From assembly GCA_914767715.1 (NCBI GenBank), contig OU612075.1, forward strand, positions 620,001 through 684,000: a stretch of 64,000 nt of DNA, written 5' to 3'. This document shows, in pieces, positions 188 through 37,433 of the stretch. The translations under genes were made by a program, and so were the position numbers. The notes under the pieces were generated by a model. That model searched no databases. It was not told the DNA's origin and saw only the letters and a program-made list of their open reading frames with translations. Source of the DNA: Membranipora membranacea. Lineage: Eukaryota; Bryozoa; Gymnolaemata; Cheilostomatida; Membraniporidae. Numbering within the stretch: position 1 is the stretch's first letter; every line of letters begins with the position of its first letter.

Positions 188-1064
188 ATTGTATAGAGTG
201 TATGGCGACCTCAGATAATGTAGTAAGAGCTGGTCTAACCCCTAAATACAAGGATGTAGATACTCTAGTCGAGATGTTAGACTACACTCCTCGTACTAAA
301 GCTGATAATATCATGTCTTACTCTACCAGGGGAGACGATTCTAACATCCGTGTGTTCCAACCACCTGTTCCTGATTTTGGTGTTCACAGTATTCAGGTAA
401 GAACACTAAATTCTTCTCAGGGAACTGAATTATTAACATAACACTCTACAGTTAGAACACTCATCGCAGGGACTGGTCAGATTATGATCTGATTGGCTAC
501 CCCTACTTACATACATAATATAGCCATTAGTTAATAATCATATTTACTATATATGCGAACAGTAACAAAATGCCTTCAGCGACAATGACTTGGGCGTTTC
601 TAGGATGCTACTCTCAAATTGCCAGACTTGCATGGTCCTTGAACAATCGTCAGACCTAATACTCACCATTATTTTATTTGTTTGTCTCTGCATCTTATCT
701 GAACTGCTCAATCGTCAGCCAGAAAACAGTGTCTTGAAGCTTTTGGTAACGGAACGAAATACTTGACTAAACCGGCTACCTCTAACTACGTAATGTAACT
801 AATTGTAACTAACTTTTATAACTAACTTTTGTAACTGATTTTCTTTTAAATTTTCAGATTAAAGCATCAGAATCGTATAGTTTATCAGCTGAAGCCAGTG
901 CTAGCATTCTCATTATAACAGAAGGTCAATGTGAAATATCACAACTAGGTCAAGTGAAATCAGGTCATGTTATATTCATATCTGCAAATGAAGAACGTAC
1001 GATCACATCTGGTGAGAAGGGGATAGTCATGCACAGAGCACTTTGTATACCGTCAACAAATTAG
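188..1064 (+). CDS. Mannose-6-phosphate isomerase (type I), C-terminal two exons
   Basis: Two exons, 188-396 and 858-1064, join in frame. The first begins after a TAG acceptor and the second follows TTTTCAG. The first encodes CIECMATSDN, VRAGLTPKYKDV and FQPPVPDFG, which are landmark segments of type I phosphomannose isomerases (established family knowledge). The second encodes the terminal beta-barrel part, with LIITEGQ, SGHVIFISA and MHRALCI, and ends at TAG 1062-1064. The enzyme interconverts mannose-6-phosphate and fructose-6-phosphate in the cytosol, feeding GDP-mannose and glycosylation. The catalytic metal-binding N-terminal half lies outside the window, so activity cannot be judged. 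No lesion is seen in the visible part. Confidence 0.85.
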
Positions 1065-9573: not shown

Positions 9574-9723
9574 CTAAGATGCTTGGTGCAGTGAAACGGT
9601 TTTTCAAGAGGAAGAGTAAAAGTGAGAAAAAAAATAAGAGTGAGAGTGATGGTGTTGATGAGGATGAGAATGAGATTGAGAGTGAGAGTGAGGACGAGGA
9701 CGAGGACAGGGATGAGGAACCGG
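9574..9723 (+). CDS. Roco-caspase exon 1: basic/acidic N-terminus
   Basis: The exon follows TGCTTTCAG and its ATG is at 9579. It encodes MLGAVKRFFKRKSKSEKK, then a run of Glu/Asp/Ser ending DEDEDRDEEPG, and ends phase 1 at GTAAGT. It is strongly charged and probably disordered. An ATG at 9510 in the same frame would add 23 residues, but it would read through the acceptor, so 9579 is preferred. Confidence 0.65.
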
Positions 9724-12700
9724 GTAAGTAACCACAAATTTTTTGCTAATACCAGCTTAGTTCCCCCCCCCCGCTCATACAAGCTTCATAACAACAAAAA
9801 TAACCTCTTCACTATTATGACCCCCTGTACTTTACTCAGGGGACCCTCACTAGGTTTGGGGCAATCAAAGGCAGATCTCATTTTGGAGCTAAGTAGACAG
9901 ATGAAATTAAAATTTCCATTTCGTTCTCGACAAGATATGATGATTCCAAATCTTGAGCTTGTAAATCAATAGGGTATGCTCCCATCTCGCAAGATTATTT
10001 AGTCATTTGCACGCAATTGTATTTTCAGTACAGAAAACAGACAGTCAAATTGTATGTTAGTTATTTCTATACGGAAGCCAATAATTTATTCAAAACCACT
10101 ACCTTTAAACGTCCTGATAAAACCATCACCACAACAATTGGCCATACCAGGAATTGTGAGGCTATACAGTAAAGGATTTTTTATTTAGTCTGGTGTTGTG
10201 ATCTCATACATCATAATAAGCTAATAGCTAATCAGCCCATAATCATATTATCATATCATATGATGAGAGACAAGATGATTATCAGTATAAACAGATAAAT
10301 ACCAGATTACACATTAACAAGAATTTATTTTTATGTTGGTTATTTCTATACAGAAGCCAATAAGTTATTTTATAACCTACCAACGTCCTGGTAAGACCAT
10401 CGCCACAGCAATTGTTTATACCAGGAAGTGTTAGGCTGTACAGAAAACCTTAATATAATGTTAGGAGTTTTGATCTCATACATCATAAGATGCTAATAGC
10501 CCATAATCATATCATATCACAAGGGACAAGATGATTATCAGTATAATCAGATAAATACCAGATTACACATTAACATGACCTTATTAGGATGACATCACTG
10601 ATTATATATGATTAATATTATTATATTATAGAATATAATGTCTGGTACAGACACAGTGGAGAGGCAGAGTTAGAGGTAGAGAGTGTGAGAGTAGGATATG
10701 GTGATCTGTCTATAATACGTAGAGGTGAGGCTGGTGAGATCAGAGTTACTACCAAACCTCAGAAGATCAGTGAGATAAAGAGTAGAGTAGGATCTCACTC
10801 TATTACTCACATGTTTATATATGACAGTGAGGTACCTGATAGTCTGAGGTCTATAGCTCCTCATCTTACACATCTCTATCTGAAGGGTACAAGAGGATCA
10901 CTTACAGGGTGAGTAGATTAAGATGGAAATTGTAATTATTGTTATGATTATTTCTAATTCATTCATCAGTTGTGAATGCAACAATTTGTGTTTTTGAAAA
11001 TACTTGAACTTTACCTAAACTGCCGCACCAATTGTGTATTCACAATATTAAAATTGTCCCGACTGGGAACAAATTGTCAAATGATCTCACCTCAACCCAG
11101 CCTGGTATCCACCATAACACGCCTTCCTGGTTTATCATTTCAACAAAGTCTTATTTTCAAATTGCCTAACTGTAAAAGAGATAACATGATAAATGATATT
11201 CTTATAATCAAATATAGATAATTTAGACATAATATGTCCAAATTATTTGATTAGTATATTATGATAGCAATGGGACATAGAAAAATCAATTACTGGCTAA
11301 TTATATTTGATAGACTAAGATAGATGGAGTAACTGTGTAATATAATGTGATATTTGATGATACATTATGAGAAATATTGGAAATCTTGTATCTTGTATCA
11401 TGTACTGATTGATTATATATAATATTATTTTGTACATATTTTACAGACTGTCTGAGCTTAGTCAGCTGGAGAAGCTGGATATAAGTTATAACGACTTCTC
11501 AGTGGGTGGTCTGCCTCCTGTTATACCCAGTCTTACCTCCCTCAGAGTGCTGAGTCTGACTGACTGTGAGCTATCATCTCTAGATGACAGGTGAGTCTGG
11601 TGTGTGTGTATCTCAATAGATAAGAGCTTCAGATAAGTTTGAATGGTTTTTCCCTCATTGCTTATTTTCTGAAGTTCAATTTTTCATTTGTGAGGCTGTA
11701 TAAAAAGATAGGAGGGTTCCAGAAGAATATATTATCCACAATTTTAAAACTTTACACTCTATCAGTTTCAATTTTTGACTCATGAGGCTCTTATAGGATC
11801 AGTTCTGTTAGTAATGATGTTTATATCAGACAGAAAGGGATACAATTTGTTCACCACACTGTCAGCGGTTTGCAGGGGCATTTAAATTAGAATAGGAAAA
11901 TTTGAGGGTCCTAAAAAGATGACTGGTGAAGTCTCAACCTGATCCTGTGATAGATACAACAATCAATAAAACATTGAACTACGGCATCCATTATGATTTT
12001 ATGGAGTAAAATTAAAGTTTCTAATTTTTTTAATGTAATTTGGTGTTTGAAAATATACTATAAGATGTGTCAGGAAACTTAAACATTTTACATCTTAGCA
12101 ATACATAATAATATTGACAGGCTATCTTGGGCTGACCCAGCAAATTTAATAGATGCATTTCTTTTACCAATTTACCAGTCATCAACATGCAAAATATACA
12201 GCAAAGTCAACAATAAAGTTTGGTATGTCGTATTGACAGGCTGAAAAATGGCGGGGGGGGGGGAGGTGCAGGGATGGGATGGGGAAGATTGAGGATTTTC
12301 ATTATATTTCCTTTCTCCATGCTAATTAATTCAAATGAATGAACCATAATGTTTATTAGTTATGTTTTTATCCCCCCTAATTAAAATTAAGGATTTGTAG
12401 ACTTTGTTTTGCTAGCTAATGAATTTTTTTTTATATTTTTTGGTTATAAAAGGGTAAGTTTAATGGCATTGTCATGCCTGCTTCCCGATTTTATTTGATC
12501 TTAAATTTGACCAGTTTAGTTAAATCAATATAGAGAAGTTTTAAATTTAGTTTTCATGGTCTAAGTCTAAGTGTTCAATGTGGAGAGAGCTGTTCCCATG
12601 GTACTTGAACCGCGCTCCATACCCAATTTGTGTTTTTGAAAATACTTGAACTTTACCTAAACTGCCGCACCAATTGTGCATTTACAATTTTAAAATTGTC

Positions 12701-15700
12701 CCGACTGGGAACAAATTGTCAAATGATCTCACCTCAACCCAGCCTGGTATCCACCATAACACGCCTTCCTGGTTTATCATTTCAACAAAGTCTCATTTTT
12801 AAATTACCTAACTGTAAAAGAGATAAAATGATATATGATATTCTTATAATCAAATATAGATAATTTAGACATAATATGTCCAAATTATTTGATTAGTATA
12901 TTATGATAGCAATGGGACATAGAAAAATCAATTACTGGCTAATTATATTTGATAGACTAAGATAGATGGAGTAACTGTGTAATATAATGTGATATTTGAT
13001 GATACATTATGAGAAATATTGGAAATCTTGTATCTTGTATCATGTACTGATTGATTATATATAATATTATTTTGTACATATTTTACAGACTGTCTAAGCT
13101 TAGTCAGCTGGAGGAGCTGTCGATAGATGGTAACTTCTCAGTGGGTGGTCTCCCTCCTGTTATATCCAGTCTTACCTCCCTCAGAGTGCTGAATCTTTCT
13201 TACTGTGAGCTATCATCTCTAGATGACAGGTGAGTCTGGTGTGTGTGTATCTCAATAGATAAGAGCTTCAGATAAGTTTGAATGGTTTTTCCCTCATTGC
13301 TTATTTTCTGAAGTTCAATTTTTCATTTGTGAGGCTGTAAGATAGGAGGGTTCCAGAAGAATATATTATCCACAATTTTAAAACTTTACACTCTATCAGT
13401 TTCAATTTTTGACTCATGAGGCTCTCATAGGATCAGTTCTGTTAGTAATGATGTTCATATCAGACAGAAAGGGATACAATTTGTTCACCACACTGTCAAG
13501 GGTTTGCAGGGGCATTTAAATTAGAATAGGAAAATTTGACGGTCCTAAAAAGATGACTGGTGAACCTGGTCCTGTGATAGATACAACAATCATTAAAACA
13601 TTGAACTACGGCATCCATTATGATTTTATGGAGTAAAATTAAAGTTTCTAATTTTTTAATGTAATTTGGTGTTTGAAAATATACTATAAGATGTGTCAGG
13701 AAACTTAAACATTTTACATCTTAACAATACATAATAATATTGACAGGCTATCTTGGGCTGACCCAGCAAATTTAATAGATGCATTTCTTTTACCAATTTA
13801 CCAGTCATCAACACGCAAAATATACAGCAAAGTCAACAATAAAGTTTGGTATGTCGTATTGACAGGCTGAAAAATGACGGGGATGGGATGGGGAAGATTG
13901 AGGATTTTCATTATATTTCCTTCTCCATGCTAATTAATTCAAATGAATGAACCATTATGTTTATTAGTTATGTTTTTATCCCCCCTAATTAAAATTAAGG
14001 CTTTGTAGACTTTGTTTTGCTAGCTAATGAATTTTTTTTATATTTTTTGGTTATAAAAGGGTAAGTTTAATGGCATTGTCATGCCTGCTTCCCGATTTTA
14101 TTTGATCTTAAATTTGACCAGTTTAGTTAAATCAATATAGAGAAGTTTTAAATTTAGTTTTCATGGTCTAAGTCTAAAGTGTTCAATGTGGAGAGAGCTG
14201 TTCCCATGGTACTTGAACCGCGCTCCATACCCAATTTGTGATTTTGAAAATACTTGAACTTTACCTAAACTGCCGCACCAATTGTGCATTTACAATTTTA
14301 AAATTGTCCCGACTGGGAACAAATTGTCAAATGATCTCACCTCAACCCATCCTGGTATCCACTACAACACGCCTTCCTGGTTTATCATTTCAACAAAGTC
14401 TCATTTTTAAATTACCTAACTGTAAAAGAGATAACATGATATATGATATTCTTATAATCAAATATAGATAATTTAGACATAATATGTCCAAATTATTTGA
14501 TTAGTATATTATGATAGCAATGGGACATAGAAAAATCAACTACTGGCTAATTATATTTGATAGACTAAGATAGATGGAGTAACTGTGTAATATAATGTGA
14601 TATTTGAGGATACATTATGAGAAATATTGGAAATCTTGTATCTTGTATCATGTACTGATTGATTATATATAATATTATTTTGTACATATTTTACAGACTG
14701 TCTAAGCTTAGTCAGCTGGAGGAGCTGGATATAGGAGGTAATAACTTCTCAGTGGGTGGTCTGCCTCCTGTTATATCCAGTCTTACCTCGCTCAAAGTGC
14801 TGAATCTGTCTCACTGTCGGCTATCATCTCTAGATGGCAGGTGAGTCTGGTGTGTGTAGCTCAATAGATAAGAGCTTCAGATAAGTTTGAATGCTTTTTC
14901 CCTCATTTCTTATTTTCTGAAGTTCAATTTTTCATTTGTGAGGCTGTATAAAAAGATAGGAGGGTTCCAGAAGAATATATTATCCACAACTTTAAAACTT
15001 TACACTCTATCAGTTTCAATTTTTGACTCATGAGGCTCTTATAGGATCAGTTCTGTTAGTAATGATGTTTATATCAGACAGAAAGGGATACAATTTGTTC
15101 ACCACACTGTCAGCGGTTTGCAGGGGCATTTAAATTAGAATAGGAAAATTTGACGGTCCTAAAAAGATGACTGGTAAAGTCTCAACCTGGTCCTGTGATA
15201 GGTACAACAATCAATAAAACATTGAACTACGGCATCCATTATGATTTTATGGAGTAAAATTAAAGTTTCTAATTTTTTAATGTAATTTGGTGTTTGAAAA
15301 TATACTATAAGATGTGTCAGGAAACTTGAACATTTTACATCTTAACAATACATAATAATATTGACAGGCTATCTCGGGCTGAGCCAGCAAATTTAATAGA
15401 TGCATTTCTTTTACCAATTTACCATTCATCAACACGCAAAATATTTATTCATTTGTTTAAAGAGGTTTTCTAGAAAGTTTACAGATAACAGAGTAGTTAT
15501 AAAGTAACTTGTTGACCTCTACACACAGTTAAATACCCAAAAAAAAGGGGTTATACATAAATAAATGACGATGTTCTAGAAATGGGAAATTAAGTAAGTT
15601 ATATATGGCTTTATAGAAATAGAAAATGATATATATATATATATAAAATTATTGTTCTTGTTACAATTATTATAAAAAGTATTAGTTAAAAAATAGTAGG

Positions 15701-18700
15701 CTGTCAGCCGTTTTGCATTTCAGTTTGAAATTGTGCAGCAGATTTAAGAGAGCTGTTTTGCCAAAATGTGTCCTAAAAGAGGGTTTTATTACTGAACATT
15801 TACTTCTAAGGGAGCGTTGGTGTTTATTGGACTTTTGCACCAGGCGAAGAATATGCTTTGATGCTTTATTTTTGAATAATTTCTTATGTGTAAATTTGTG
15901 AAATAGGTAATGTCTTCTACTTTTTAGGGTGGGTAAGTTTAAGAGTGATCTACCAGTCGTGACAGAAAACTTTTTAGGTGCAGATATTATGATTCTAATT
16001 GCTTTATTCTGAACTTTTTCAATTGTATCGGATGTTTTTTGAGTGCCTTCTAGGTAGATAGATGAGCAGTATTCTAGGATAGGTCTGACGAGAATTTTGT
16101 AAGTCCTTAAGGATTCCTCAACGTTCATGTATTTTCTCAGTTTTGAGAGTAGGTATACTACTTTGTTTGCTTTGGTTGCCGTTTCATTGGCATGGATGTG
16201 GAAAGATAAATCAGTATCCAGGGTAACCCCTAGTACATTGATAGAGAGTTTTGTCTCAATTTTTGAGTTTTGAAAATTGATGTGGTAAAAGTTTTTAATT
16301 TTTCTGTTGGAAAATATGCACAATTGTGTTTTCTCAATGTTGAGTCTCAGTAAGTGGCTATGATACCAATCTGATGCTTTCTTTAGCAGAGTATTGGACT
16401 CCACTAGTACTTCATCTATGCTTGTGGCTGTACAGTAGATTAGCGTATCATCTGCATAAGCGAATGAATTGTCAAATGTTGCTAGCAATCCATTGATGGC
16501 TAAGTTAAAGAGGATAGGACCCAGAATTGAGCCTTGAGGTACCCCACAGGTGATTGCTTGTGAATTAGATCGTGACAACCCCACTTTCATTACTTGGGAT
16601 CGGCTTTGAAGATATGATCGAAGTAGTGCTATTGCAGAACTGGAGAATTGTTTTTTATCCAGTATGTATAGAAGAAGTTTGTGATTGATTGTATCAAAAG
16701 CTTTTCGGACATCTAGGGATAAGGCTCCAATGTAACATGGAGTGGATTGGTCAAGTTTAGTTTTCCATTGTTGCAGCACAGATAGCAACATTTGCTCGGT
16801 TGAATGATTCTGACGAAATCCGAATTTTTGGTCTGAAAATAGGTTGTGTTTCTCTATGTAAGACATCATCTGATTTTTCATGTCATGTTCAAATATCTTT
16901 GACAGAAATGGAAGCGAGGATATTGGTCGATAATTTGACGGGTCACATTTTTTACCCTTTTTATGAATTGGCGTGACAAGGGCAGATTTAAAGCAGTCAG
17001 GGAAGATTGATTTATGATAGCATTCATTGGCCAGAATGGATAGCGGGTAGGCAATTAAGTCAACTATTATTTTATAAATCATTGCTGGTATGCCACTTAG
17101 ACCACCGCGCTTGTCTGAGTTGAGTGAATTTATGAGCAAAGTAATTGTTTTACTAGTGATTGGACTGAAAGAGAATTTGAAAGAATTTGTTTCTGTAGGA
17201 AAATGCGGGAAATTTGCCGGATTGAATTCAGAGCGCCCGGCAACGTTTATGAAGAAATCATTTAAGGCGCAGGCAATATCTTTTTCATCCGTATGTTCCA
17301 CACTTTTGTATTCCAGGCACTCTATAGACGTATGGGATTTCTGTTTCTTGGTTATGGATTTTAAGCAGGAATAAAAACTTTTGTCGTTTGCTGATAATGA
17401 TTTGCTAATGTAGTTTTTCTTAGCGGTACGAATTTGGTTGGTAACATAGTTTCTGAATTTCTTGTAATGTTGGACTTGGCCATCAGTTGGGGCTTTAGAC
17501 GCTTCGTATACTTCCTTGTAAAATTAGTTTTTGAGTGAAATCATGTGCAGCACATCTGAAGTGATCCATTGGTTTTTCTTGTTGCGTACTCGCATAGTTT
17601 TTTCTGGCGCGTGTTTGTCTACAATGTTTATTATAGATTGGTCAATCATTTCAGCTCGTTTATGGATTGAAAGATTGGGGTCGGCGGCTATTTGCTGAAA
17701 AGGTAACAGTGCACATTCTTTATAGAATAACAAGGGGTTTAATTTCTTGAAACTTCTGGTTTTGATGAGTTGACGTTTTTGGCTTTAAAGGTTTTATCCT
17801 GTCAAGCATTAAAAGTGTGGCATAGTGGTCTGAGATTGATCGCTCACATGTTAAAATTTTGGAAGTTTTGACTTTTAGATCACAATTAACATAATTGTGA
17901 TCGATGAGGCTTTCATTACCATGGTAACTTACAAATGATGAACCTGTTATCACTTGATATAGGCCTGTAGAAATGAGACTCTGTTGTATAAGTTGTTTTT
18001 CTCTAGAGTTAGAGTTCCAATTTATATGTTGAAATCCCCTAATAACACAACATTTTTTTGAATGAACTGTTTTTGATGTAAAATATCACTCAATGATGAG
18101 ATAAATTTCATTTTATCAGCGTCAGGTGGAAGATAGATGGATGCCACGATCAAGCTACCTTCATCTTGTTGAGTTTTGATGTTAATCCAAACAGAGTCAC
18201 ATAATTCTCGCAGTTTAGATTGAGGCTGTTGAATAGTTTTAAACTTTAAAACATTATTTATATAGAGAGCTGCCCCACCGCCACGTGTTTTTGTGGTCGA
18301 TTTTCTGTCACATCTGATAATATTAAAGCCGGAGAGGTCCACAATGAGTTTGGAATTTCAGGTTTCAACCATGTTTCCGAAATAGAAAAAATGTCAATTG
18401 AGTTTGATAAATTTAGACTTTCATAGAAATAAAGTTTGTTCATTAAAGACTTAACATTGTTGTGAAGAAGGCTGAGAGTGTTATGTCCAGAGGTCCTGGT
18501 AGCATTGGCTAGTGATGAGATGTTATCCCAGAGTCGGTTGCGGAGGTCTAGGTTGTATTCAAAGATATTTCTAGATTGCTGAGTTGAGTTAGCCATTGTT
18601 TATGTTTAGTTTTTCTGCTCGGAGTTTTAGATTTAGATGTGGAGAGTGACATTGTCACGAAGTGCTCTCTCTAGTTGATTATGATTATTAAATGTTACTT

Positions 18701-21700
18701 TTACTGTGCGTAGGTATTTCTTTTCAGCTGTCTGTAGTCGGTATATTGATGAGACTTCGCCAAAAATATCTTGAATCTGCTTCAAGAGTTCTTCATCTGA
18801 TACGTATGTGGGAACTTCTTTCAACATTGCGATGTTTTTGTTTGGTTTTATTGGGAGGCGAGCTGTACTTCCTCCTAGCGTTTCCTTGTTCCAGTTTGTG
18901 GTCATGTGTTCTCTTATGGTGGGGTCGGACAGTTGGACGATAAATTTGGGGTCAGTAGAGTTAAACTTATATTTGTTGATGAAATCAATCATAACCGGCT
19001 TTTCTGCAACTTGACTAACTGCCTTACGGACATCATCATGGTTGACGTTGCTGAAATCTTTGCTGTTGCTGTGTATTATTATGCATTTTGCAGGTTCGAA
19101 TGTCGGATCGTTTCTTTTTGTTTCCCTCGGTTTTTGTCCAGAAGAAGGTTTGTCGTGTTTGTCTTGTTTTGGTGGTGGATCTGGTTTTTGCGATTTCTGT
19201 GAATTACCGTTATTTTGCTGTGCTGATAGTTGTTATGGGGGTGGTTTATGCTGTTGGTACTGCTGTCTCAATTGTGTTTCTGGTGGCGATGCTGGTGCAG
19301 GTGGTGGAAGCCCCACGGCTGCTGCATTTCTGTAGCTGAGAGCCATATGGGTACTGGTCGGTTTTTCAGGCAACTTTTCAATCTTTTTGTTAAGAGTGGA
19401 AACCTCAGATTGCAAAGCGGTCAGTTTGGCTGACATCTCTTTTACGATTTCCAGCATGTTGACACATGTGATACATTCTGTTGTTATGCGGTTTTCATGT
19501 AAACTTAGGGTATCCCAGTCATCCAAACTTGTAGGTGTGTGGTTTGTTTGACAGCTTTCTTCCTCTCCAGTTGCAACTGATTTCATTGGCGTGTTTGATT
19601 GATTGTTAGAGGATTTCACTTCATCTGACAGGTCAATAGGTGTGCTTAATCCAGTGCCAACTTCCTTGGTGGCCATCGGATTGCTTGACGATTTCAGAAT
19701 AACTGATGTGTTAATTGGCTCGTCTGGTCCAGTGGCAATTTCATTGGTAGCCTTTAGATTGCTTGATGATATCATGACATTTGACTGGCTAAGCGGTTCA
19801 TTTGGTCCAGTACTAACCTCCTTGGTAGCCATTGTATTGCTTGACGCACCTGTGGAAGTTGTGGTGGTGACAGTAGAGGAGAATGTAGTATGTTTAGATG
19901 TATAGAATACCTGTGGTTCTTTAAATCCTTGTTTTTTCATAAAGTTAATAGCTCCTTATTCTGTCGTGTATCCTTGATAGAGGTTGCCACTATGTCCATC
20001 AACTTGTTTCTTTGCGGTTTCCCAGTCGTCGAAAATACCACATCTGCGACCTATGGCGACTGCGTAATATTTATGCTTGGGGTTTGGTTCCTGCGGCATT
20101 TTTTATCCGTATTAAGTTGTCTCAATCCTCTAAGATCAGAAGAGGTAATCAAAATACGTGGCCATTGTTTTTCGTGACCTTGACCTATACAGCAAAGTCA
20201 ACAATAAGGTTTGGTATGTCGTATTGACAGGCTGAAAAATGGCGGGGATGGGGAAGATTGAGGATTTTCATTATATTTTCTTTCTCCATGCTAATTAATT
20301 CAAATGAATGAACCATAATGTTTATTAGTTATGTTTTTATCCCCCCTAATTAAAATTAAGGCTTTGTAGACTTTGTTTTGCTAGCTAATGAATTTTTTTT
20401 ATATTTTTTGGTTATAAAAGGGTAAGTTTAATGGCATTGTCATGCCTGCTTCCCGATTTTATTTGATCTTAAATCTGACCAGTTTAGTTAAATCAATATA
20501 GAGAAGTTTTAAATTTAGTTTTCATGGTCTAAGTCTAAGTGTTCAATGTGGAGAGAGCTGTTCCCATGGTACTTGAACCGCGCTCCATACCCAATTTGTG
20601 TTTTTGAAAATACTTGAACTTTACCTAAACTGCCGCACCAATTGTGCATTTACAATTTTAAAATTGTCCCGACTGGGAACAAATTGTCAAATGATCTCAC
20701 CTCAACCCATCCTGGTATCCACCATAACACGCCTTCCTGGTTTATCATTTCAACAAAGTCTCATTTTCAAATTACCTAACTGAAAAAGAGATAACATGAT
20801 ATATGATATTCTTATAATCAAATATAGATAATTTAGACATAATATGTCCAGATTATTTGATTAGTATATTATGATAGCAATGGGACATAGAAAAATCAAT
20901 TACTGGCTAATTATATTTGATAGACTAAGATAGATGGAGTAACTGTGTAATATAATGTGATATTTGATGATACATTATGAGAAATATCGGAAATCTTGTA
21001 TCTTGTATCATGTACTGATTGATTATATATAATATTATTTTGTACATATTTTACAGACTGTCTAAGCTTAGTCAGCTGGAGAAGCTGTGGATAGAAGGTA
21101 GTAACTTCTCAGCGGGTGGTCTGCCTCCTGTTATATCCAGTCTTACCTCCCTCAGAGTGCTGAGACTGTCTGACTGTCAGCTATCATCTCTAGATGACAG
21201 GTGAGTCTGGTGTGTGTATCTCAATAGATAAGAGCTTCAGATAAGTTTGAATGGTTTTTCCCTCATTGCTTATTTTCTGAAGTTCAATTTTTCATTTGTG
21301 AGGCTGTATAAAAAGATAGGAGGGTTCCAGAAGAATATATTATCCACAATTTGAAAACTTTACACTCTATCAGTTTCAATTTTTGACTCATGAGGCTCTT
21401 ATAGGATCAGTTCTGTTAGTAATGATGTTTATATCAGACAGAAAGGGATACAATTTGTTCACCACACTGTCAGCGGTTTGCAGGGGCATTTAAATTAGAA
21501 TAGGAAAATTTGACGGTCCTAAAAAGATGACTGGTGAAGTCTCAACCTGGTCCTGTGATAGATACAACAATCAATTAAACACTGAACTACGGCATCCATT
21601 ATGATTTTATTGAGTAAAATTAAATTTTCCAATTTTTTAATTTAATTTTGTGTTTGAAAATATACTATAAGATGTGTCAGGAAACTTGAACATTTTACAT

Positions 21701-24700
21701 CTTAACAATACATAATAATATTGACAGGCTATCCTTGGCTGAGCCAGTAAATTTAATAGATGCATTTCTTTTACCAATTTACCAGTCATCAACACGCAAA
21801 ATATACAGCGAAGTCAACAATAAAGTTTGGTATGTTGTATTGACAGGCTGAAGAATGGGGGGGGGGGGGGGGGGCGGGGATGGGATGGGGAGATTGAGGA
21901 TTTTCATTATATTTCCTTTCTCCATGCTAATTAATTCAAATGAATGAACCATAATGTTTATTAGTTATGTTTTTATCCCCCCTAATTAAAATTAAGGCTT
22001 TGTAGACTTTGTTTTGCTAGCTAATGAATTTTTTTTATATTTTTTGGTTATAAAAGGGTAAGTTTAATGGCATTGTCATGCCTGCTTCCCGATATTATTT
22101 GATCTTAAATTTGACCAGTTTAGTTAAATCAATATAGAGAAATTTTTAATTCAGTTTTCATGGTCTAAGTCTAGGTGTTCAATGTGGAGAGAGCTGTTCC
22201 CTCTAGGATACAGGTGCTTGGACCCATGGTACTTGAACCGCGCTCCATACCCTTGCCCGCTCAAGATCTGGTAATTCTTTGGTTTGTTGGTTTCTTTTGT
22301 CATGCTGAGAAAATTGGGTGTTTATACTGTTGCATGGGCGAGGGATAACAAAGAGTAATATAAAAAGAATATGAGGAATGTAAAAGTGTATCGAAAAACC
22401 AGAAGGGGATCTGTTCACTGCATGTGAGGTGTGAGGTATTCTCAATTGAATTCGGACGCCACAGATCACAAGTCCACACCATTAACATTTAGACCACTCC
22501 TGACTCCTATTTTCAATAGTGAAATTTCCTGTGGTTCAGTTTGTCGTGTTTGTTGACGTCTCTTGATAACCAGATGAGACCAAAGTCCTGCAAAAATGTG
22601 GACCATATCGGAAGCAGAATATAAACATTCCTTTATTTTAGCTCACAGCATTTTTCTCATATTTTTGATTCACCAAAGATTTGCCCTATATTCTGTAAGA
22701 AATAGGTGTTTGAAGTTATGTAGTTCTATGACAATTCAAATATATCGAAATATATGGTTAAATATAAATACCTCATCGAATACAATAAAATTCAGTGTAG
22801 GAAGGAGTCAGGGAATAAGCAGACAATTTTGCCAACAGAATAATTCCAGGTGTATTATTTTATTGATTTAAATTGAGGATTATTTTGAATTACTAAAAAT
22901 ATAAATGCATTAATATAAGTTGAAAAAAATTTCTTGAAGAAGTCATTTAGACTGACCTTTGTAGTTTGTGTACTAAATTCTAAGCTGGATCGTTTTTATC
23001 TGTGTTTATCTTAATATTATTTACCATAATATATTATATAGATAGTATCAAATTAAATGTGTAAATTCTGGTTCAATTAAGTAGTTTGAGCATAAGATGC
23101 ATATAAATATAAATATAACTAAATTCCTTAAAATTACATGGTGATAAGATTTCAGATCAATCACAACACTAACTGTGGACTTAGATTCAAATATACGTTT
23201 TCCAAATCACACGTGATCAAAATATAAAAGGAGAATATACATTTTCCAAATGTAAGTGACCTGCTCTCTTGAGCACTCACATAATATAGTGCATCATCAT
23301 CCGTTCAATAATGAGGGAAAACTATAATGGGTGAAAACTCCTAAGAACAGCAGCCGCCATCCACTGAGATTTATGTCAATATTCAAATCGGGTCAATTCT
23401 ACCATTTACTCATGATGAAGTACAGGTGCAGCTTTTGTATTTGACCATCCCAGTAATCCCAACAAACATATTGTAATCTTACTTCCAGGACGGATAATGT
23501 ATATTTTAATCTAAGACCGCAGTAAGCGTGGTGTTTTATCTGAAATAGTTATTTTTAGGAATTAAGTTTTAAAACAAAAAAGTGATGAAACAGGACTTTA
23601 CATTGTTAGCTGCTTGCTAAATATTTTAGACGCTTATTATTCTACTTACATTAACACTTACTTTTATGCATTGACTGCATGTAGGGATTGTCATAAATTA
23701 GGTAACAAATTGGGAATTTTGAGTGTATAACCAAAAATCTGTCTGCTGTCGCACATACATCATTGTGATAACCCTCAATTTCAAAGCCAAATAAGTCATA
23801 ACATATATAACAAATACTGGTGGATAGTTAGAAGGGTATAAAACTCAGAAATTTTAAAATTCAATTCATGTGCTAAATGCAGAAAGAAAATATGGCAGTT
23901 GTGTCTGCAATTTTAACACCGAGTTTTAACATCAAATGTGTCAGTCTGTCACTCCCCATTTTAGTGTCACCTACATTATTGTATACAGATTTTTGTTTTG
24001 TCTCTAATTGCTTTATTGACTTCCTCTCAATTTCATCTATTCTTATTCTTATAGCCTGGATGGTCTGACCCGACTAGAGAAGTTAGGTCTCAGCTCCAAC
24101 AACTTCAGTTCTCTGCCTGCTGTTGTGACCAGACTGAAGTCTCTCACACATCTGAGTTTGTTTGGGATACAATCTCTAAGGGAGCTTCATCCAGCACTGA
24201 TAGACTTACAAAACCTGATAGAGCTGGACTGTCGTGAATGTCATAATCTCAAATCACCTCCATATGCAGTCTGTAAACAAGGATTACCTGCAATCAGGAA
24301 ATACTACACGGATTTAGCTGAGAAATCTGGTGTCAGGCGACCAATCATATCTGCCGCAGTCATTGGAAACAGAATGGCGGGAAAAACTAGTCTGATAAGG
24401 AGTCTGAAGAGTCAGACACGAGAGCTCACACATCGAGATGAGTCTGCTGAGGATGATGAGACAACCAAAGTGTTTGAAGTCAATGAAATCCCTGTAGGGC
24501 AGAATATGCTGAGAATGTTTGACTTGGGAGGTGATAAAGTTTATCACCTCTCATATCAGCTCACCATAAGGCCCAGTTATATCCCTATTGTTGTAGTGAA
24601 TATGGAACAGTTTGACCAGCTAGTCAGGTCCAAGAACATTGAAGAGGCCACTAAACAGCTTTGCACAGATTTTCTCTCCCACCTGTACATCTCCTGCCCG

Positions 24701-27700
24701 AAGTTGGGACCCCCGTTCCTTGTTCTCACACACAGAGACAAACTAACAATAGAAGACTTTAATCTACGGAAATCTGAGCTCCTGGATTCTGTGGAAAGGC
24801 TACGTTCAAGGATGCTTGAAGAGGAGAGGACACTAGCAGCACAAAGAAGAAAGAACTTAATCTCGGAGATTGAGTGTTTTTCTAATAAGAGGAATACAAT
24901 ATTCAGCGCTATGCATACATATGTGGTGAGCAATGACTTGAATGACCTCAACAGCATTTATGCTCTACTCAAAGCATTGTCTGAGAAGTGCCTGGAACAT
25001 AGCGTGAAGATTCCTTTCATATGGGAGAAAATAGCCGGTTTTATTGAGAATCAGGCCGAAATGCCCTTTATATATGTTTCTGACATTCTGGCCAAATTTC
25101 CAGCTGAAAAACATGTTGAGATCGTCATTAGATACATGCACAATGAGGGCAGATTAATGTGGTTTGAAAAAGAGGACATGTTGAAGGGGATCGTGTTTCA
25201 CAAAACATCTGCAATCACCAAAGTGATAGCTACCCTGTTCGATCACAAAGGGGAAGAGATGTGGGATCAACGTATTGATGAGTTTGAGCCTTTTGAGTTT
25301 GGCAATAAGATAGTTAGTGCGGAGAAGTACATCTCAATGGTCGAATGCTTCAAAAGAAGTGGAGTCCTTGATGAGTGTCTTCTTATGAGTCTCTATGACA
25401 ATCAGATATTCCCAAGAGATGTGGCGATCTGTCTCCTGCAGACTTTCTACCTTATCTGTGGACCAATAAAAACATCATTAAGGGATAAGTTCATCATACC
25501 GTACCTATCATCGGATGTCATTGAGCTCCTTCCCACCACAGCTGGTCTTCTGAGAGTTAAACTGGCTATCTGGTTTATTGGTTTACCCCCTCCCTCTTAT
25601 GTCTACCACTTGCTTGTCGTTGCATTCTTGAATCAGTTCACGGACCCTAGGTACAAAATAAGAGCTGCAAAGAATGGAGCACTAGTTCATCATGGTCAGA
25701 AGATCACAATACTGCTTCACAATCACAACAAGCGAGAAGTTCTCCTCTACTCTGACACCCCAGTAGATCAGCTAGAATCCTGCTGGAGACAAGCTATCGA
25801 TGTCTTAGAAGCTGTAATAAAGAACCTGAAGTCTGTATGGGTAGCTGCTCATCCCGTCTGTAAGTTCTTCTGTGCCCACTGTATCTACACAGGAGAAGAG
25901 AAACCAGACTGTGACACAGATCCAGATTGGTACACACCACCATCAGACCCTGCCACAGACCCTCCACTCAGAAGTAGATTGAGGACCTTCCCAGGTGTAG
26001 AGCCTGTTGAATGTCTTAATGCCAGATCTAACGGAGGATCTCTTGTAGTCCCTTCTCCACTCAGATATCCTAGTAAGTATTTTTACTTTTTCGGGCATAT
26101 CAAGTGAAGATAACTTTAATTGATACCTATATCTTAAATGATATCTATAATAATATTTACTAAAAAGTTAGTCTTTTCTATCACTGGAATATCAGATCCA
26201 GAGAACTTCTTGAAAACTTAAATTTATACTAGAAGGCTTTTCTTAATACTTGCGCACATAAGTATAAACTTAATTTTCAATTTTACAGGTTTCGAGTTGA
26301 CGGCTGATGAGAAGACACAAATCAAGGACTATCTGAGATCGATCCCACATCGTCAAAGTTCTCAACCTTCACAAACAGCAATGATAAATACTGGTCAGAA
26401 TCCTACATCACCACCAGCCTCTAACCGTATGTACAAATCTTTGTCTCTGTATGTATACAGTGTTATGTTCTGTTATAGCTGAGATTGTGACACAACATAG
26501 ATAAACAGGCCTGCTCAAAAGTAGCTTGATCAATGATAATAATCCTGGGAATGAGAAGGCTTGTTATCCACTTTCTAAAACCACAAGACTCATCGGAATT
26601 TTGATTTTTCACTTCTAGAAGCTGCAGCCGTAGACAGAACAATGATTGATGAGATAATGAAGGAGATGAGAGAGAAGCCAGCTCTTATAATTCAGGACCC
26701 TGTGATAAATACTGTCGGACTCTCAGCCAATCAGGTTACACTGACTCCAGCAGTATATCTTTATGTCTTTTTATTGTGTTATTTAATGTGATAGTTATAT
26801 CTTTTGCAAGATGCTGTGTATCTCATGTGCTTAAAATTACATGCGGACATTCTCCCTCCCTATCAATTACACAATATTCAGAAATTCTTTTTATCATTTT
26901 ACAAGACAGATAAACTTTATGATGTCAGCTGTTTTATCACAGCCTCAATTATTTATTAAGTCGGGTAGGAACAAAACACAGATTGTGTTGGTACTTATAT
27001 ATTTGCCTTTTATTTCCAGTATACAATGACTGAGACACGAGGGAGAGCACTCCTAATATCTAATGAGTACAAACTGCCCAACCGCTCATACAGGAAAGGC
27101 TCAGAACATGACCACAGAAATATGAGAGATCTTTTAGTGAAGCTTGGGTTTGTTGTTGTAGGTGGTCATCAGAACTACACAGCAAAGGTATCGATCGTGT
27201 AAATCTAACATGAGTGTAAAATATGTCTTAAAAAAACTTATCTATTTCTTTACCTTACTTATAGACGCAAATATTATCCGTAACTAAAAATACTCTTTCT
27301 TGACACGTACACACATTTTTTGTGATAATGTTGTTAACCTTGCAGGTGTAGCTTATTGATTTCACAACTTGATTTATATTTCAGGAAATGGTGGAGGCAA
27401 TTCACAGAGAAACACAACTGGTAGATGAAACAGGAGAATCTGTCTATAAGAACCTCGGAGTGTTTGTACTGATGATCACAAGTCATGGCACTGAAGGCTG
27501 TGTGGCAGGTGTGGACAGTAAACTGGTCAAGCTCACAGACATATGCAAGATGGTCTCCGCAAGAAATTTCCCAGCCATGCGGGGCAAACCAAAACTCCTC
27601 GTAATACAAGCTTGTGCTGGAAGTAAGTGAAATATTAACCTATCTTTTAGTTTGAGCAGCCGGCCACGATCTCCAGGTAAAGTTTATCCCGTGTTAAGCG

Positions 27701-29758
27701 ATGAGCAGCCTCTGCAATATTTCACAATCTTGAAAGCTGTCAAACATCAACACAGGGGTCATTGAGAGTATTGGATATATATATTAAACATGTTGTAAGT
27801 GTTATTGTTGATGGAAATAATGTAGATCAAGTTTGATCCATTTGCCTGTGTTTGGAGTTGCCCCTTTCTACTGGTGACGTCGCAGTAGAGGAGGGGCAAC
27901 TCCAAACGCAGGCAAATGGATCAAACTTGATCTATTGAATAATATGTAAAATTTACACAATGCTGCTCTGCCATGTTGCTATATCGATCAAGTCTGAACT
28001 CGTAATTCTAATTTGGAGTTGCTCTCCCAGGTCTGACAACTGTGCAGTCAAGTGTAAGCTACTCCATACAAATCAATGAGATCTGATTTGATACATATTT
28101 AGTAGGTCAACACAACAAAATCACCAGATTATTGTGTGTACGTGGCTCTCTATATGATGTATGTTTACTACTGTGTTCTGGTATCAGTTACTTGTGATTG
28201 TCCTTACAGGTAGTAGAGAGATGTTGTTAGATACCACAGACTCAATACCCTCAATCTCGGAACTGAGTGCAGCTGCACCTGAACCTCTCCCCACTACATC
28301 CGATCTAGTAGTGACATCATCAGCACCTAGAGAAGGAGATCTGTATCAGATGGGACGTGATGTCATACAGCTATTACCTGAAGTAGACAGTATCAATGAA
28401 ACAATATCAGTGGCTGATCTGATAATTATGCAATCAAGTTTTGACAGTAAGTTTTATATTTGGAAGTTCCTCTCATACATTGGCTGTTAACAAAAATGAC
28501 TAAGGAGTAAGGTATTCGAGAGTATATGAGTCCAAATTTGAGTCTTTCAACATCATTTACTTACTCGACTATTCATAATCATCTGTTCTACATCTTCCCT
28601 CTCCCCTTCTCCTATCCCAATCTTTGTGATGTCATAAAATCAGGTTTAATGCCCATTTTATTCAGATTAATTTCATAATAAATAATTGTTTTGTAGCATT
28701 TGTGTCTCCTAGATCACCTGTAACAGGATCGGCATTCATCAGAGCCCTGGTCGTAACGCTCTACAAGTTTGCAGGACAGTTTGATGTCGTAACTTTGGGT
28801 GAGCTAGTGAGTATTACCGCATATGGCCATAATTCGAACTAGGATGTGTGAACTAGAATGAGAGGTTGACACAGCAATATAAAAAACTCAATTCTGTCAG
28901 GGATAACGACAACCCTCAGCTACAAGAACACTATCCACACCAGAAATGTGATATATTGCCCCAAATTCCAAATCATGATAAACATACATATAACTAAAAA
29001 TTGATCTCTACTTGATATGGTTATATTGGAATTGTTTAGCATATGCGCCCATCTCCATATTGATGTCTTTGGTATAATTTTAATTTTTTACACAAAGGTA
29101 AGAGAGGCTGTCAGTAGATATGGAGTAGAGCAAACACAGGCTTACCTTGCAGCTAATCCTGGTCAGAATGCAGCTTACGTAGCTCAGATGCCTAAGATGA
29201 TATCTACTCTCACAGACCTAAGAAAGTTATACCTCAGACCTGGAGTTAATATGAGAAGAGCTGGAGAACATCCACAATCTCTGACAGATCCCAGATATCC
29301 TGATGGTAATACTACCACAACTATAGAATGGTTACCAGGTAAAAATTATTAAAGATTACAAATTGAAAATAGCTCAACACAATGTGATCTTGACTTTTAC
29401 ATCACTCTCCAAAGTCCAAATTATAATTTTGGCTTAAATAAAATTATGAAAGTGGGAAGAATACGCCGCTCCATTTTTTGTTTTACAGAAGCTGGTTGTT
29501 TACACTTTGAAATGCCAAAGTACTGTTGAAATCTTTTTTTTCCAAAATAATCTGTTTGGTTACATTCTAGATTTGAAAACCACCGAGGCGGTCGGAAACA
29601 CTCGGCCTCAAGTACGGAATTACATACGATGGAGAATCAGGACAGCAGCACCCATAGTGAGACCTAGACCTATTCCTAGACCGAGAACAAGGCCTGTTCC
29701 TAGACCGAGAACACGGCCTATTCCTAGACGGAGACCACTCCCGGCTCCAAGGCCATGA
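9574..29758 (+). CDS. LRR-Roc-COR-caspase fusion protein (Roco-caspase)
   Basis: Exons: 9574-9723 (ATG 9579), 10632-10908, 11447-11590, 13089-13229, 14697-14840, 21057-21200, 24055-26072, 26289-26426, 26619-26734, 27020-27187, 27385-27622, 28210-28446, 28697-28806, 29098-29338, then an alternative last exon (29489-29529 or 29571-29758). Every junction is GT-AG and the phases agree throughout, giving about 1,480 residues. In order (approximate residues): lysine-rich then acidic N-terminus (1-48), LRRs (about 135-420), Roc GTPase with P-loop GNRMAGKTS, DLGG and THRDK (about 425-570), COR-like region (about 600-870), linker, caspase p20 with SHG and QACAG (1090-1224), p10 (about 1305-1415), tail. 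The LRRs should sense a ligand, Roc should switch on GTP, and the caspase should cleave after Asp; the joint function is inferred. The start follows a CAG acceptor, so an upstream untranslated exon is likely. Confidence 0.85.
10632..10908 (+). CDS. Roco-caspase exon 2: region leading into the LRRs
   Basis: It joins exon 1 in phase 1 and ends phase 2 at GTGAGT. It encodes about 92 residues rich in beta-forming segments (VRVGYGDLSIIRRGEAGE, THMFIYDSEVPDSLRS) and ends with HLTHLYLKG, which resembles the first LRR strand. I do not recognise the first 60 residues as a named domain. Confidence 0.75.
11447..11590 (+). CDS. LRR exon, repeat copy 1
   Basis: This 144-base exon encodes 48 residues, two leucine-rich repeats (LSQLEKLDISYNDF and LTSLRVLSLTDCELSSL). 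It is phase 2 at both ends (acceptor TTTTACAG, donor GTGAGT), so it can be duplicated or skipped without a frameshift. It is the only copy with VIPSL where the others have VISSL. Confidence 0.9.
13089..13229 (+). CDS. LRR exon, repeat copy 2
   Basis: The exon has 141 bases, one codon shorter than its siblings, with the deletion in the exposed LRR segment (LEELSIDGNFSVGG). Phases and splice sites match the other copies. The variation falls mainly at the surface positions between the conserved leucines. Confidence 0.9.
14697..14840 (+). CDS. LRR exon, repeat copy 3
   Basis: The exon has 144 bases and encodes LEELDIGGNNFSVGG and LKVLNLSHCRLSSLDG. It is phase 2 at both ends. The following intron carries the LINE insertion at 15440-20186, so this exon and copy 4 are now more than 6 kb apart. 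Confidence 0.9.
15682..17301 (-). CDS. LINE ORF2 C-terminal part: reverse transcriptase
   Basis: This open frame of 539 codons contains the classic RT motifs in order: DVRKAFDTINH (motif A), GVPQGSILGPILF (motif B) and FAYADDTLIY (catalytic YADD, motif C), then a thumb region with RKYMNVEESLRTYKILVRP. This part is intact. The upstream endonuclease of the same ORF is split among other frames, so the enzyme would not be made as one protein from this copy. Copying would be by target-primed reverse transcription. Confidence 0.92.
   Translation of the reverse strand: MEHTDEKDIACALNDFFINVAGRSEFNPANFPHFPTETNSFKFSFSPITSKTITLLINSLNSDKRGGLSGIPAMIYKIIVDLIAYPLSILANECYHKSIFPDCFKSALVTPIHKKGKKCDPSNYRPISSLPFLSKIFEHDMKNQMMSYIEKHNLFSDQKFGFRQNHSTEQMLLSVLQQWKTKLDQSTPCYIGALSLDVRKAFDTINHKLLLYILDKKQFSSSAIALLRSYLQSRSQVMKVGLSRSNSQAITCGVPQGSILGPILFNLAINGLLATFDNSFAYADDTLIYCTATSIDEVLVESNTLLKKASDWYHSHLLRLNIEKTQLCIFSNRKIKNFYHINFQNSKIETKLSINVLGVTLDTDLSFHIHANETATKANKVVYLLSKLRKYMNVEESLRTYKILVRPILEYCSSIYLEGTQKTSDTIEKVQNKAIRIIISAPKKFSVTTGRSLLNLPTLKSRRHYLFHKFTHKKLFKNKASKHILRLVQKSNKHQRSLRSKCSVIKPSFRTHFGKTALLNLLHNFKLKCKTADSLLFFN
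17302..18596 (-). pseudogene. LINE ORF2 N-terminal part: APE-type endonuclease, frameshifted
   Basis: Endonuclease signatures lie on the minus strand in several frames: ISETWL (catalytic Glu) near 18.4 kb, GGGAALYINN, LLGDFNI near 18.03 kb and SISDHYA near 17.83 kb. These are the conserved motifs of APE-type LINE endonucleases. The open segments are 18258-18596, 18022-18342, 17720-17953 and 17524-17733, and they overlap or change frame. The domain is therefore broken by small indels. About 200 bases at 17302-17523 link to the RT frame. Confidence 0.85.
18633..20099 (-). pseudogene. LINE ORF1 with RNase H1-type hybrid-binding N-terminus, broken
   Basis: Reading from ATG at 20099-20097, the first 47 codons include YYAVAIGRRCGIFDDWETAK and VDGHSGNLYQGY. 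This matches the N-terminal hybrid-binding domain of RNase H1 (the caulimovirus-viroplasmin fold). A TAA at 19958-19956 then interrupts the frame, which continues (GAINFMKKQGFKEP) into 19940-19233. That part is Ser/Thr-rich with a coiled-coil-like segment, LEIVKEMSAKLTALQSEV. After a frame change, 18992-18633 holds a possible RRM-like domain (VPTYVSDEELLKQIQDIFGE, TVKVTF). ORF1 proteins bind the LINE RNA; the hybrid-binding module is unusual. Confidence 0.75.
21057..21200 (+). CDS. LRR exon, repeat copy 4
   Basis: The exon has 144 bases and encodes LEKLWIEGSNFSAGG and LRVLRLSDCQLSSLDD, phase 2 at both ends. It differs from the other copies mostly in exposed LRR positions (WIEGS). It joins the long Roc-COR exon in phase. 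Confidence 0.9.
22200..22506 (-). mobile_element. tRNA-derived SINE-like element
   Basis: On the minus strand, TGGTCTAAATG (near 22485-22495) fits the pol III A-box consensus exactly. About 34 bases further on, GTCCGAATTC resembles a B box with two mismatches. The region between reads like a tRNA anticodon arm (GGACTTGTGATC). The body runs to about 22200. The end toward 22200-22245 is also present, shortened, at each internal junction of the LRR array. The 5' and 3' limits are approximate. Confidence 0.5.
22507..24054 (+). other. Intron before the Roc-COR exon
   Basis: This AT-rich intron follows the LRR array. No further LRR exon, no array-like sequence and no open exon with matching phase were found. 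It ends at the acceptor TTCTTATAG before 24055. Confidence 0.6.
24055..26072 (+). CDS. Roco-caspase exon: last LRRs, Roc GTPase and COR
   Basis: This long exon of 2,018 bases (about 672 residues) starts in phase with every LRR exon (LDGLTRLEKLGLSSNNF). Two or three more LRRs follow, then a capping segment with CKQGLPAIRKYY. Roc motifs are GNRMAGKTSL (P-loop, near 24364), MFDLGGDKVYH (switch II) and LTHRDKL (base recognition, variant of NKxD). A basic helix-rich stretch with coiled-coil character follows. The COR-like part contains VSDILAKFPAEKHVEIV, LLMSLYDNQIF and FIIPYLSS. It ends with a Cys/His cluster (HPVCKFFCAHC) and an Asp/Pro-rich segment. No lesion is seen. Confidence 0.92.
26289..26426 (+). 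CDS. Roco-caspase linker exon 1
   Basis: The exon has 138 bases, phase 1 at both ends. It encodes LTADEKTQIKDYLRSIPH followed by a Ser/Pro/Thr/Gln-rich stretch that ends PTSPPASN. It is probably a flexible linker between COR and caspase, with no named domain. Confidence 0.8.
26619..26734 (+). CDS. Roco-caspase linker exon 2
   Basis: The exon has 116 bases and enters in phase 1 after ACTTCTAG. It encodes VDRTMIDEIMKEMREKP and then VINTVGLSANQ, and ends phase 0 at GTTACA, a weaker donor. It corresponds to the segment just before a caspase p20. Confidence 0.75.
27020..27187 (+). CDS. Roco-caspase exon: caspase p20, N-terminal part
   Basis: It encodes TETRGRALLISNEYKLPN, then GSEHDHRNMRDLLVKLGF and a VVGGHQNYTAK segment. 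This matches the first strand (G.ALLI.N) and the DHRNM..LL..LGF helix of caspase p20 domains; the Arg before NM sits near the usual substrate-binding Arg region. Phase 0 at both ends. The exon is absent from the partial paralogue downstream. Confidence 0.92.
27385..27622 (+). CDS. Roco-caspase exon: caspase p20 catalytic part
   Basis: It encodes VFVLMITSHGTEG with the catalytic His (codon 27484-27486) and KPKLLVIQACAG with the catalytic Cys (codon 27613-27615). The two are 43 residues apart, close to the usual caspase spacing. Between them lie LVKLTDICKMVSARNFP and GKPK, as in typical caspases. The exon ends phase 1, and the next exon completes QACAGSSRE. Both catalytic residues are present, so proteolytic activity is expected. 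Confidence 0.95.
27831..27935. repeat. Long hairpin repeat (TAGATCAAGTTTGATC family)
   Basis: An imperfect inverted repeat reads GATCAAGTTTGATCCATTTG, then GGAGTTGCCCC with a short loop, then the complement. It has TAG...CTA ends like the foldback elements, but a clean target duplication is not visible. It lies in the intron after the catalytic exon. A right-arm remnant is at about 42785-42848, and a diverged relative is at 60860-60993. Confidence 0.75.
28210..28446 (+). CDS. Roco-caspase exon: inter-subunit linker
   Basis: The exon has 237 bases, phase 1 at both ends. It carries an acidic, Ser/Pro/Thr-rich segment (LLDTTDSIPSISELS, PEPLPTTSDL) and ends with SVADLIIMQSSFD. Several Asp residues (LLDTTD, TTSDL, PEVD) could serve for cleavage between the large and small subunits; this is inferred from position only. 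Confidence 0.88.
28697..28806 (+). CDS. Roco-caspase exon: caspase p10, first part
   Basis: It encodes FVSPRSPVTGSAFIRALV and KFAGQFDVVTLGEL. This matches the p10 start of caspases (VSWRNPxxGSWFI..L), including the Arg of the substrate pocket. Pro replaces the usual Trp after Ser. In the paralogue at 44664-44773 the end reads TLWEL instead of TLGEL. Confidence 0.92.
29098..29338 (+). CDS. Roco-caspase exon: caspase p10, second part
   Basis: The exon has 241 bases and encodes VREAVSRYGVEQTQAYLAAN, then QMPKMISTLTDLRKLYL, which fits the last p10 helix and strand (QIPxxxSTLxKxLYF). It then runs into PDGNTTTTIEWLPG and ends phase 1. Both alternative last exons accept this phase. Confidence 0.9.
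29489..29529 (+). CDS. Roco-caspase alternative last exon, short form
   Basis: After a strong acceptor (TTTTGTTTTACAG) the phase-1 join gives EAGCLHFEMPKYC and a TGA at 29527-29529. The same acceptor, frame and stop are kept in the paralogue (45450-45490, EAGCLHFERSMYC). If used, the protein ends 14 residues after the p10 exon. Confidence 0.55.
29571..29758 (+). CDS. Roco-caspase alternative last exon, Arg/Pro-rich tail
   Basis: After ACATTCTAG the phase-1 join gives DLKTTEAVGNTRP, VRNYIRWRIRTAAPIV and then repeated RPRP(I/V)PRPRTRP units, ending at TGA 29756-29758. The tail is very basic and proline-rich, like an SH3-binding or membrane-attracted segment (inference). It is conserved in the paralogue at 45529-45716, which supports real coding. 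Confidence 0.65.
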
Positions 29759-30290
29759 ACAGGGCATACCTGATACATTTATTTATTTATCTATAAGCTC
29801 TCTGATGTGAGAGTCTCGAGTAATCCCAGCCTCCACTCATATTCTAACTAAGAGAGTTTTGTATAGTGTGTATAGTGTATATAATTTTATTACTCTTCAT
29901 GCTGCTGTTTTGTTAACGATGTAGCCAACCTTTCATGATTGTGAGACAGCTTGTATTTGTACATTGTTATAATTATCTATGATATATTATTTACTATGAT
30001 ATTATTATATATGTGGAGGCAGCTGGTGTGAGTTATACTTTAGGCAGCAGTTATACTATGATGTTGTCCTACTGCTGTGTGATTTACTGTAGTTTTCATA
30101 GGTCTACAGCTCAACATATTGTACAACACATGGCGGTTTTGATCTGTATAGTGTGTAAAATAATTAATCATATGCTGCATTTGCCTCCCTGTGTCGTATG
30201 CTGTATTTTGTTACCTATTTCCCATTTCCTATGATATTCTTTTCAAGTCATTTTCATTCGCTTTCTCAATATTATTACATGTATTGAAAC

Positions 30291-37269: not shown

Positions 37270-37433
37270 GACATACTTCACTTATTAATACTGACTGACT
37301 TTGAGGTAGGGAGGGGGTTTGGGCTTTTTATAAGATTCAATATTTGATCTTATATCTGAGTTTTATATGTGAGGATATCTGTTTTAGTTGTATATCATAT
37401 ATAAACGCTGTGTGATGAGGCCTGTTTCTTAGA

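Follow-up and report, generated by a model that had tools for sequence, protein, structure and literature searches.

Gene model and domains

The window, i.e., the whole stretch of DNA that was analyzed, comprises 64,000 nucleotides of contig OU612075.1 of the bryozoan Membranipora membranacea. On its forward strand, reading frames and splice sites were joined by a script to a model of 15 exons (9579-29758), which forms a single stop-free frame of 1482 residues. All 14 introns have GT-AG borders and the exon phases agree, the exon ends having been picked to suit the splice sites and the open frame. The encoded protein starts with an acidic N-terminus, which is followed by LRRs, a Roc GTPase, a COR-like region, a linker, a caspase of the CED-3/caspase-2 type, and a Pro/Arg tail. 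That LRRs, Roc motifs, a COR-like region, and a full caspase reside in one polypeptide had been proposed in the first-pass annotation. The model bore this out, as all motifs are in frame, i.e., GNRMAGKTSL (residue 436), DLGGD (488), LTHRDK (556), YRKGSEHD (1113), TSHG (1177), QACAG (1220), and VSPRSP (1306). The start, in contrast, had to be corrected from 9574 to 9579.

All exons lie on the forward strand. Exon 1 (9579-9723) contains the start codon, encodes an N-terminus that is basic and then acidic and of low complexity, and ends with the donor CGG/GTAAGT. Exon 2 (10632-10908) encodes about 92 residues ahead of the LRRs and yielded no Pfam match at E 0.01. It is followed by four LRR cassettes, exon 3 (11447-11590, 144 nt), exon 4 (13089-13229, 141 nt), exon 5 (14697-14840, 144 nt), and exon 6 (21057-21200, 144 nt). 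The large exon 7 (24055-26072) encodes the last LRRs, the LRR-Roc junction (PP..V.KQG..AIR.Y), and the Roc GTPase, and its 3′ part encodes the COR-like region and the start of the linker. The linker to the caspase is continued by exon 8 (26289-26426) and exon 9 (26619-26734); the latter has a weak donor (CAG/GTTACA), and one other GT slightly downstream, noticed by eye, would also keep the frame. The p20 subunit of the caspase starts in exon 10 (27020-27187), the first codon of which is the Y of YTMTETRG and which contains an Asp-pocket Arg in YRKGSEHD, and it continues in exon 11 (27385-27622) with the catalytic His (SHG) and Cys (QACAG). Exon 12 (28210-28446) encodes the inter-subunit linker with the candidate self-cleavage sites DTTD/S and PEVD/S and the start of p10, exon 13 (28697-28806) the p10 part with the second Asp-pocket Arg (SPRSP), and exon 14 (29098-29338) the p10 end. 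Exon 15 (29571-29758) encodes the Pro/Arg-rich tail, made of 24-nt tandem repeats, and the stop codon. Near the beginning of the window (822-1064, forward strand) a frame resembles the terminal part of a gene for mannose-6-phosphate isomerase, with a weak MPI cupin match of 17.1 bits at a cut-off of 27; a frame at 175-438, which had been taken as another exon of such a gene, gave no match.

A domain search with the joined protein placed the LRRs, the caspase, and, for its own segment only, Roc above the cut-offs, whereas COR-A stayed below. The N-terminal LRRs, which are frequent but not universal in the Roco family, reached 111.1 bits with LRR_4 in the whole model, far over the cut-off. For Roc (cut-off 27) the score was 24.3 bits when the whole model was searched and rose to 28.1 bits with the Roc segment alone, and the motifs G1, G3, and G4 of the GTPase are present (GNRMAGKTS, DLGG, THRDK). 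When exon 7 was compared by hhalign with a profile built from 11 bacterial Roco proteins, a match with 98.5% probability (E 2.5e-15) was obtained; it covers only residues 3-176 of the exon, from the last LRRs across the LRR-Roc junction into the first part of Roc. For COR-A (cut-off 35.3) the scores were 15.7 bits in the whole model and 18.5 bits (E 0.002) in the segment. It was the sole Pfam family listed for this segment at E ≤ 10, with filters that remove most matches above 0.1, and COR-B was not listed under the same settings. The comparison with the bacterial COR part of the Roco profile gave a score of 10.8, which was equalled by 194 of 200 shuffled sequences. A PDB search with Roc-COR yielded a proteasome subunit as best match (E 0.042) and the Chlorobium Roco at E 0.13, two structure models were too poor for use (mean pLDDT 44.5 and 36.7), and the five NCBIfam families listed for exon 7 were all far under the cut-off. 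From the Pfam and hhalign scores the LRR, Roc, and caspase domains are regarded as firm predictions, while a COR domain after Roc is probable, mainly by its position; as COR-A is below its cut-off, the cautious wording "COR-like" of the first-pass annotation was apt.

Among the 14 Pfam families listed for the whole model at E 0.1 there was neither NACHT nor NB-ARC, and a NACHT receptor (NLR) was rejected. The same list contained no CARD, DED, death, or pyrin domain, so that a CARD/DED prodomain of the initiator-caspase type was also rejected, although a diverged one could escape a sequence match. No match was obtained with PADLOC (exon 7-14 model, E 0.01) or in plasmids searched with the caspase, and in viral contigs searched with the Roc-COR exon one stretch fitted the pattern and was no relative.

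The caspase domain matched Peptidase_C14 with 107.9 bits (cut-off 21.4) at residues 1096-1380 and over profile positions 1-230 of 233. The closest solved structures were CED-3 (E 1.3e-15) and caspase-2, followed by caspase-3, caspase-9, and others, and the best 60 of the 178 matched structures were all animal caspases or designs derived from them; a metacaspase or a bacterial caspase was rejected. Both halves of the caspase align with CED-3, although p10 by itself reached a weak score (9.5 bits, E 4.6); the Pfam and caspase-9 matches also span p20 and p10. In caspases a His and a Cys are catalytic and two Arg hold the substrate Asp. When aligned with caspase-2 and CED-3, the domain retains this His and Cys as well as the Gln of QACxG and both Asp-pocket Arg, of which the p10 Arg falls into the weak stretch of 9.5 bits. 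DTTD/S in the p20-p10 linker aligns to DSVD/G of CED-3, and PEVD/S is found further along. The preference next to the Asp may be unusual, because the substrate cleft has Pro and Ala in place of two Trp in CED-3. The caspase is complete and apparently competent. With CED-3, caspase-2, and caspase-9 it shares the p20-p10 organization, the His/Cys dyad, and the Asp pocket; it differs from them in that no CARD or DED was matched and that LRR-Roc-COR takes the place of the prodomain.

LRR cassettes and a partial downstream copy

A new feature of the locus are the four symmetrical LRR cassette exons. They are hypervariable, and each lies in one of four repeat units (about 1.6 kb) that are approximately 95-97% alike. 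Each cassette exon of 141 or 144 nt runs from phase 2 to phase 2 and encodes two LRRs, and because the exons are symmetrical and multiples of three, gain or skipping of a cassette is neutral for the frame. The third unit is split by an insertion of about 4.7 kb that bears a LINE. The LINE-like element itself (15682-19955, reverse strand), located between LRR exons 5 and 6, is degenerate; its reverse transcriptase frame comprises 613 aa (RVT_1, 112.3 bits), and the frames upstream of it are broken into several pieces. Together with the introns and the type of the caspase, this LINE-like reverse transcriptase points to an animal host.

In cassettes 2-4 the variable sites are concentrated in the exons (18 of 141 sites, compared with 31 of 1008 in the flanking introns; Fisher p 5.7e-6). 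The test was weaker when cassette 1 was included (24 of 141 compared with 77 of 1005 for all four, p 7.1e-4), and this cassette is less clear, as its upstream flank differs from the others by about 9-10% (90-91% alike), almost as much as its exon (88-89% alike). The dN/dS values of the six cassette pairs, which are not independent and were calculated from few changes, were 1.81, 2.25, 4.23, 0.76, 1.48, and 4.04, and thus above 1 in five of six cases. At the exposed strand positions of the two motifs in the four cassettes, which were set from the general LRR motif after the cassettes had been seen, 8 of 8 positions are variable, compared with 7 of 40 others (p 1.7e-5). Such a pattern is what a diversifying recognition receptor that tracks changing ligands would show. 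However, synonymous changes in the LRR exons (dS 0.03-0.12) seem to be more frequent than changes in the introns, and therefore an exchange of exons between cassettes could be an alternative or an addition to positive selection.

Sequence comparison revealed a partial copy of 26819-30094 at 42617-46063 on the forward strand, which looks like a pseudogene. The segment corresponding to 26982-27868, and with it both p20 exons, is missing from this copy, and its version of exon 12 (linker) is interrupted at about 43305-44369 by an insert of about 1.07 kb; a second working gene was therefore rejected. Between the gene and the copy, 28 of 592 exon sites differ, compared with 147 of 1060 non-coding sites, so that the exons are about threefold less divergent. 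The dN/dS values of three caspase exons were 0.69, 0.49, and 0.61, which, given the few changes, indicates a mild constraint only. As judged from these comparisons of sequence, the LRR end of the protein is fast-changing and the protease end is held. Tandem repeats of 24 nt (29669-29765 and 45627-45719) encode the Pro/Arg-rich tail in both copies, and the tail is the only one of the four compared exon stretches with a dN/dS above 1 (4.92). The region between the gene and its copy (31250-41762) contains large direct duplications, e.g., 32366-34268 with 37581-39504 (93%) and 34747-36455 with 40021-41762 (89%).

Connection of the Roc-COR and caspase exons

Whether the Roc-COR exon and the caspase exons belong together was analyzed with several features of the intervening DNA. 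Codon usage was compared for exons 8-14, i.e., seven of the eight exons after the Roc-COR exon, with stop-free windows of the introns, and none of the 436, 694, 195, 38, 43, 788, and 33 windows, respectively, matched the exon in question (the windows overlap and the LINE-bearing intron was left out). The two exons between the Roc-COR exon and the caspase, 8 and 9, thus have a coding-like codon usage and keep the frame. Within 25817-28676 no AATAAA starts, and the sole ATTAAA (27783) is located inside intron 11. A separate caspase would most obviously start with the ATG at 27026, which sits within the stretch aligned to CED-3; this stretch begins at the preceding Tyr, the first codon of exon 10. 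Taken together, these three features favor one gene, and a single mRNA would span the LRR, Roc, COR-like, and caspase exons. Two adjacent genes, a Roco gene that ends soon after exon 7 and a short caspase gene that starts with ATG 27026, are quite improbable, even though animal caspases stand alone as a rule, an in-frame stop (26105-26107) would be reached about 30 bases beyond exon 7 if the intron were retained, the ATG is close to the start of exon 10, and the donor of exon 9 agrees with the consensus at only six of nine positions. Such a pair of genes would leave the splice sites and matching phases of exons 8 and 9 and their codon usage to be explained, as well as the missing AATAAA and the position of the ATG inside the CED-3 alignment. 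It is also unlikely that one gene gives rise to several products, with a shortened caspase or Roco made next to the full fusion through an alternative promoter, splicing, or a retained intron. The same ATG and retained-intron stop would serve this purpose, the LRR cassettes could be skipped with the frame kept, and alternative splicing of LRR exons has been reported in the matched passages on brown-algal ROCO genes (PMC11378527).

A single gene that encodes the full fusion is preferred, and two further readings concern its function. The caspase might be a regulatory or decoy domain as in cFLIP, and the protein a scaffold and not a protease. The two replaced Trp of the substrate cleft and the motif QACAG instead of QACRG in CED-3 would fit to this assumption, but the domain retains its catalytic His/Cys dyad, both Asp-pocket Arg, and linker sites with Asp, and we regard it as improbable. 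That the gene is a recently broken one or a pseudogene in a duplicating region is very improbable indeed: the downstream copy is broken, the intron between LRR exons 5 and 6 carries a degenerate LINE, and the region is rich in repeats, but the 1482 codons contain no stop and the exons have diverged about threefold less than the non-coding DNA between the copies.

Proposed mechanism and related proteins

Usually, separate proteins provide the recognition region, the GTP-binding switch, and the death protease. The gene rather probably encodes a receptor and an executioner in a single chain, with an LRR sensor whose array diversifies, a Roc-COR switch, a linker, and an initiator-type caspase. A ligand or a modified host protein would bind to the concave LRR face and thereby alter Roc-COR, either in its nucleotide state or in its oligomerization. 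This change might bring two caspase domains together, which would cleave themselves in the p20-p10 linker, putatively at DTTD/S and PEVD/S, and would thereby become active. The active caspase would then lead to cell death or to an inflammatory-type output without any adaptor, and the LRR array would diversify through duplication of its symmetrical two-repeat exons. Activation of the caspase by the fused GTPase had been suggested in the first-pass annotation and is also assumed here; the simple idea of a GTP-driven dimerization, however, needs care, since a published model, in the matched part of the source, has Roco proteins alternate between a monomeric and a dimeric form as GTP is turned over (PMC6337361).

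The first-pass annotation also held that no described protein has this order, which was too strong. For bacterial proteins with LRRs, an AP-GTPase (Roc), and COR, Kaur et al. (2021) describe, in the passages matched, that the C-terminal position is taken by one of at least 24 domains, including a caspase (PMC8195603). These conflict proteins share the order of LRR, Roc, COR (COR-like in the bryozoan), and C-terminal caspase and also the fast-evolving LRRs with the gene described here (PMC8195603), but they are bacterial, while the caspase of this study is nearest to animal CED-3 and caspase-2 among the best 60 of 178 structures. On account of these best matches, the animal fusion probably arose separately from the bacterial one.

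The peptidase IPR009003 is presumably trypsin-like. It, and not a caspase, is found at the C-terminus of group 3 of the brown-algal ROCO genes, which are from algae and not from animals (PMC11378527, matched passages). These genes have the LRR-ROC-COR order, phase-2 LRR exons, and positively selected sites on the concave face, and the bryozoan gene is similar in its order with a COR-like region, its phase-2 LRR exons, and its putatively selected exposed positions. Shuffling of LRR exons is reported for the algal genes; however, their LRR exons comprise 72 nt and one repeat, in contrast to 144 or 141 nt and two repeats here. In amphioxus, LRRs-caspase and TNFR-caspase hybrids were reported in 2008 as direct connectors (PMC2575513). 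Together with a death-caspase hybrid, they also join a receptor and a caspase in one animal protein, and a bypass of adaptors was proposed, but no Roc-COR switch is named in the matched passages (PMC2575513). Roc-COR is joined to immune or death domains in other metazoan proteins, with CARD and death domains in Trichoplax (PMC4104024) and as TIR-ROCO proteins in Aplysia (PMC9334734), but the matched passages of these sources name no caspase enzyme alongside Roc-COR. For NLRs of the sponge Dysidea avara a figure legend names caspase (CASc) and COR among the domains of the architectures as a whole, and the switch that defines them is NACHT and not Roc (PMC12909245). An animal LRR-Roc-COR-caspase protein was not found among the literature matches listed (open-licence papers, without supplementary files). 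The idea of a one-piece LRR-GTPase-caspase protein is thus known from bacteria, and that of a receptor-caspase from amphioxus, while the combination of LRR, Roc, COR, and caspase in an animal is new among these matches.

It is tempting to speculate, though we would stop somewhat short of calling it probable, that the protein is an animal one-protein inflammasome or apoptosome, in which a GTPase, and not an ATPase, directly gates a fused caspase and the recognition face diversifies via two-repeat LRR cassettes. If so, it would be an animal counterpart, probably of separate origin, of bacterial Roc-COR-caspase defence and of the shuffling of LRR exons in algae, with both united in one gene. Animals and bacteria would have arrived at one design of LRR, GTPase, and caspase whose recognition part changes fast by exon duplication, and a Roc-COR switch would control a death protease within the same chain. 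The effect of Roc-COR on its partner, which is debated for LRRK2 and DAPK1, would become readable, as caspase cleavage could report the action of Roc-COR when both are part of one chain.

In a scan of bacterial genomes for Roco, 55 stretches fitted the pattern and 13 encode a relative, a set that is biased by the Chlorobium-type query. By eye, no caspase was seen in the last 420 or fewer residues of these 13 reading frames. L006 (short frame) and L013 (fragment) were excluded from the alignment, and for the 11 proteins kept (L001-L012 without L006) Peptidase_C14 was not among the 25 of 30 domain families listed. The C-terminal ends of these Chlorobium-type proteins are variable, with MCU in three of the 11 and EAD11 in one.
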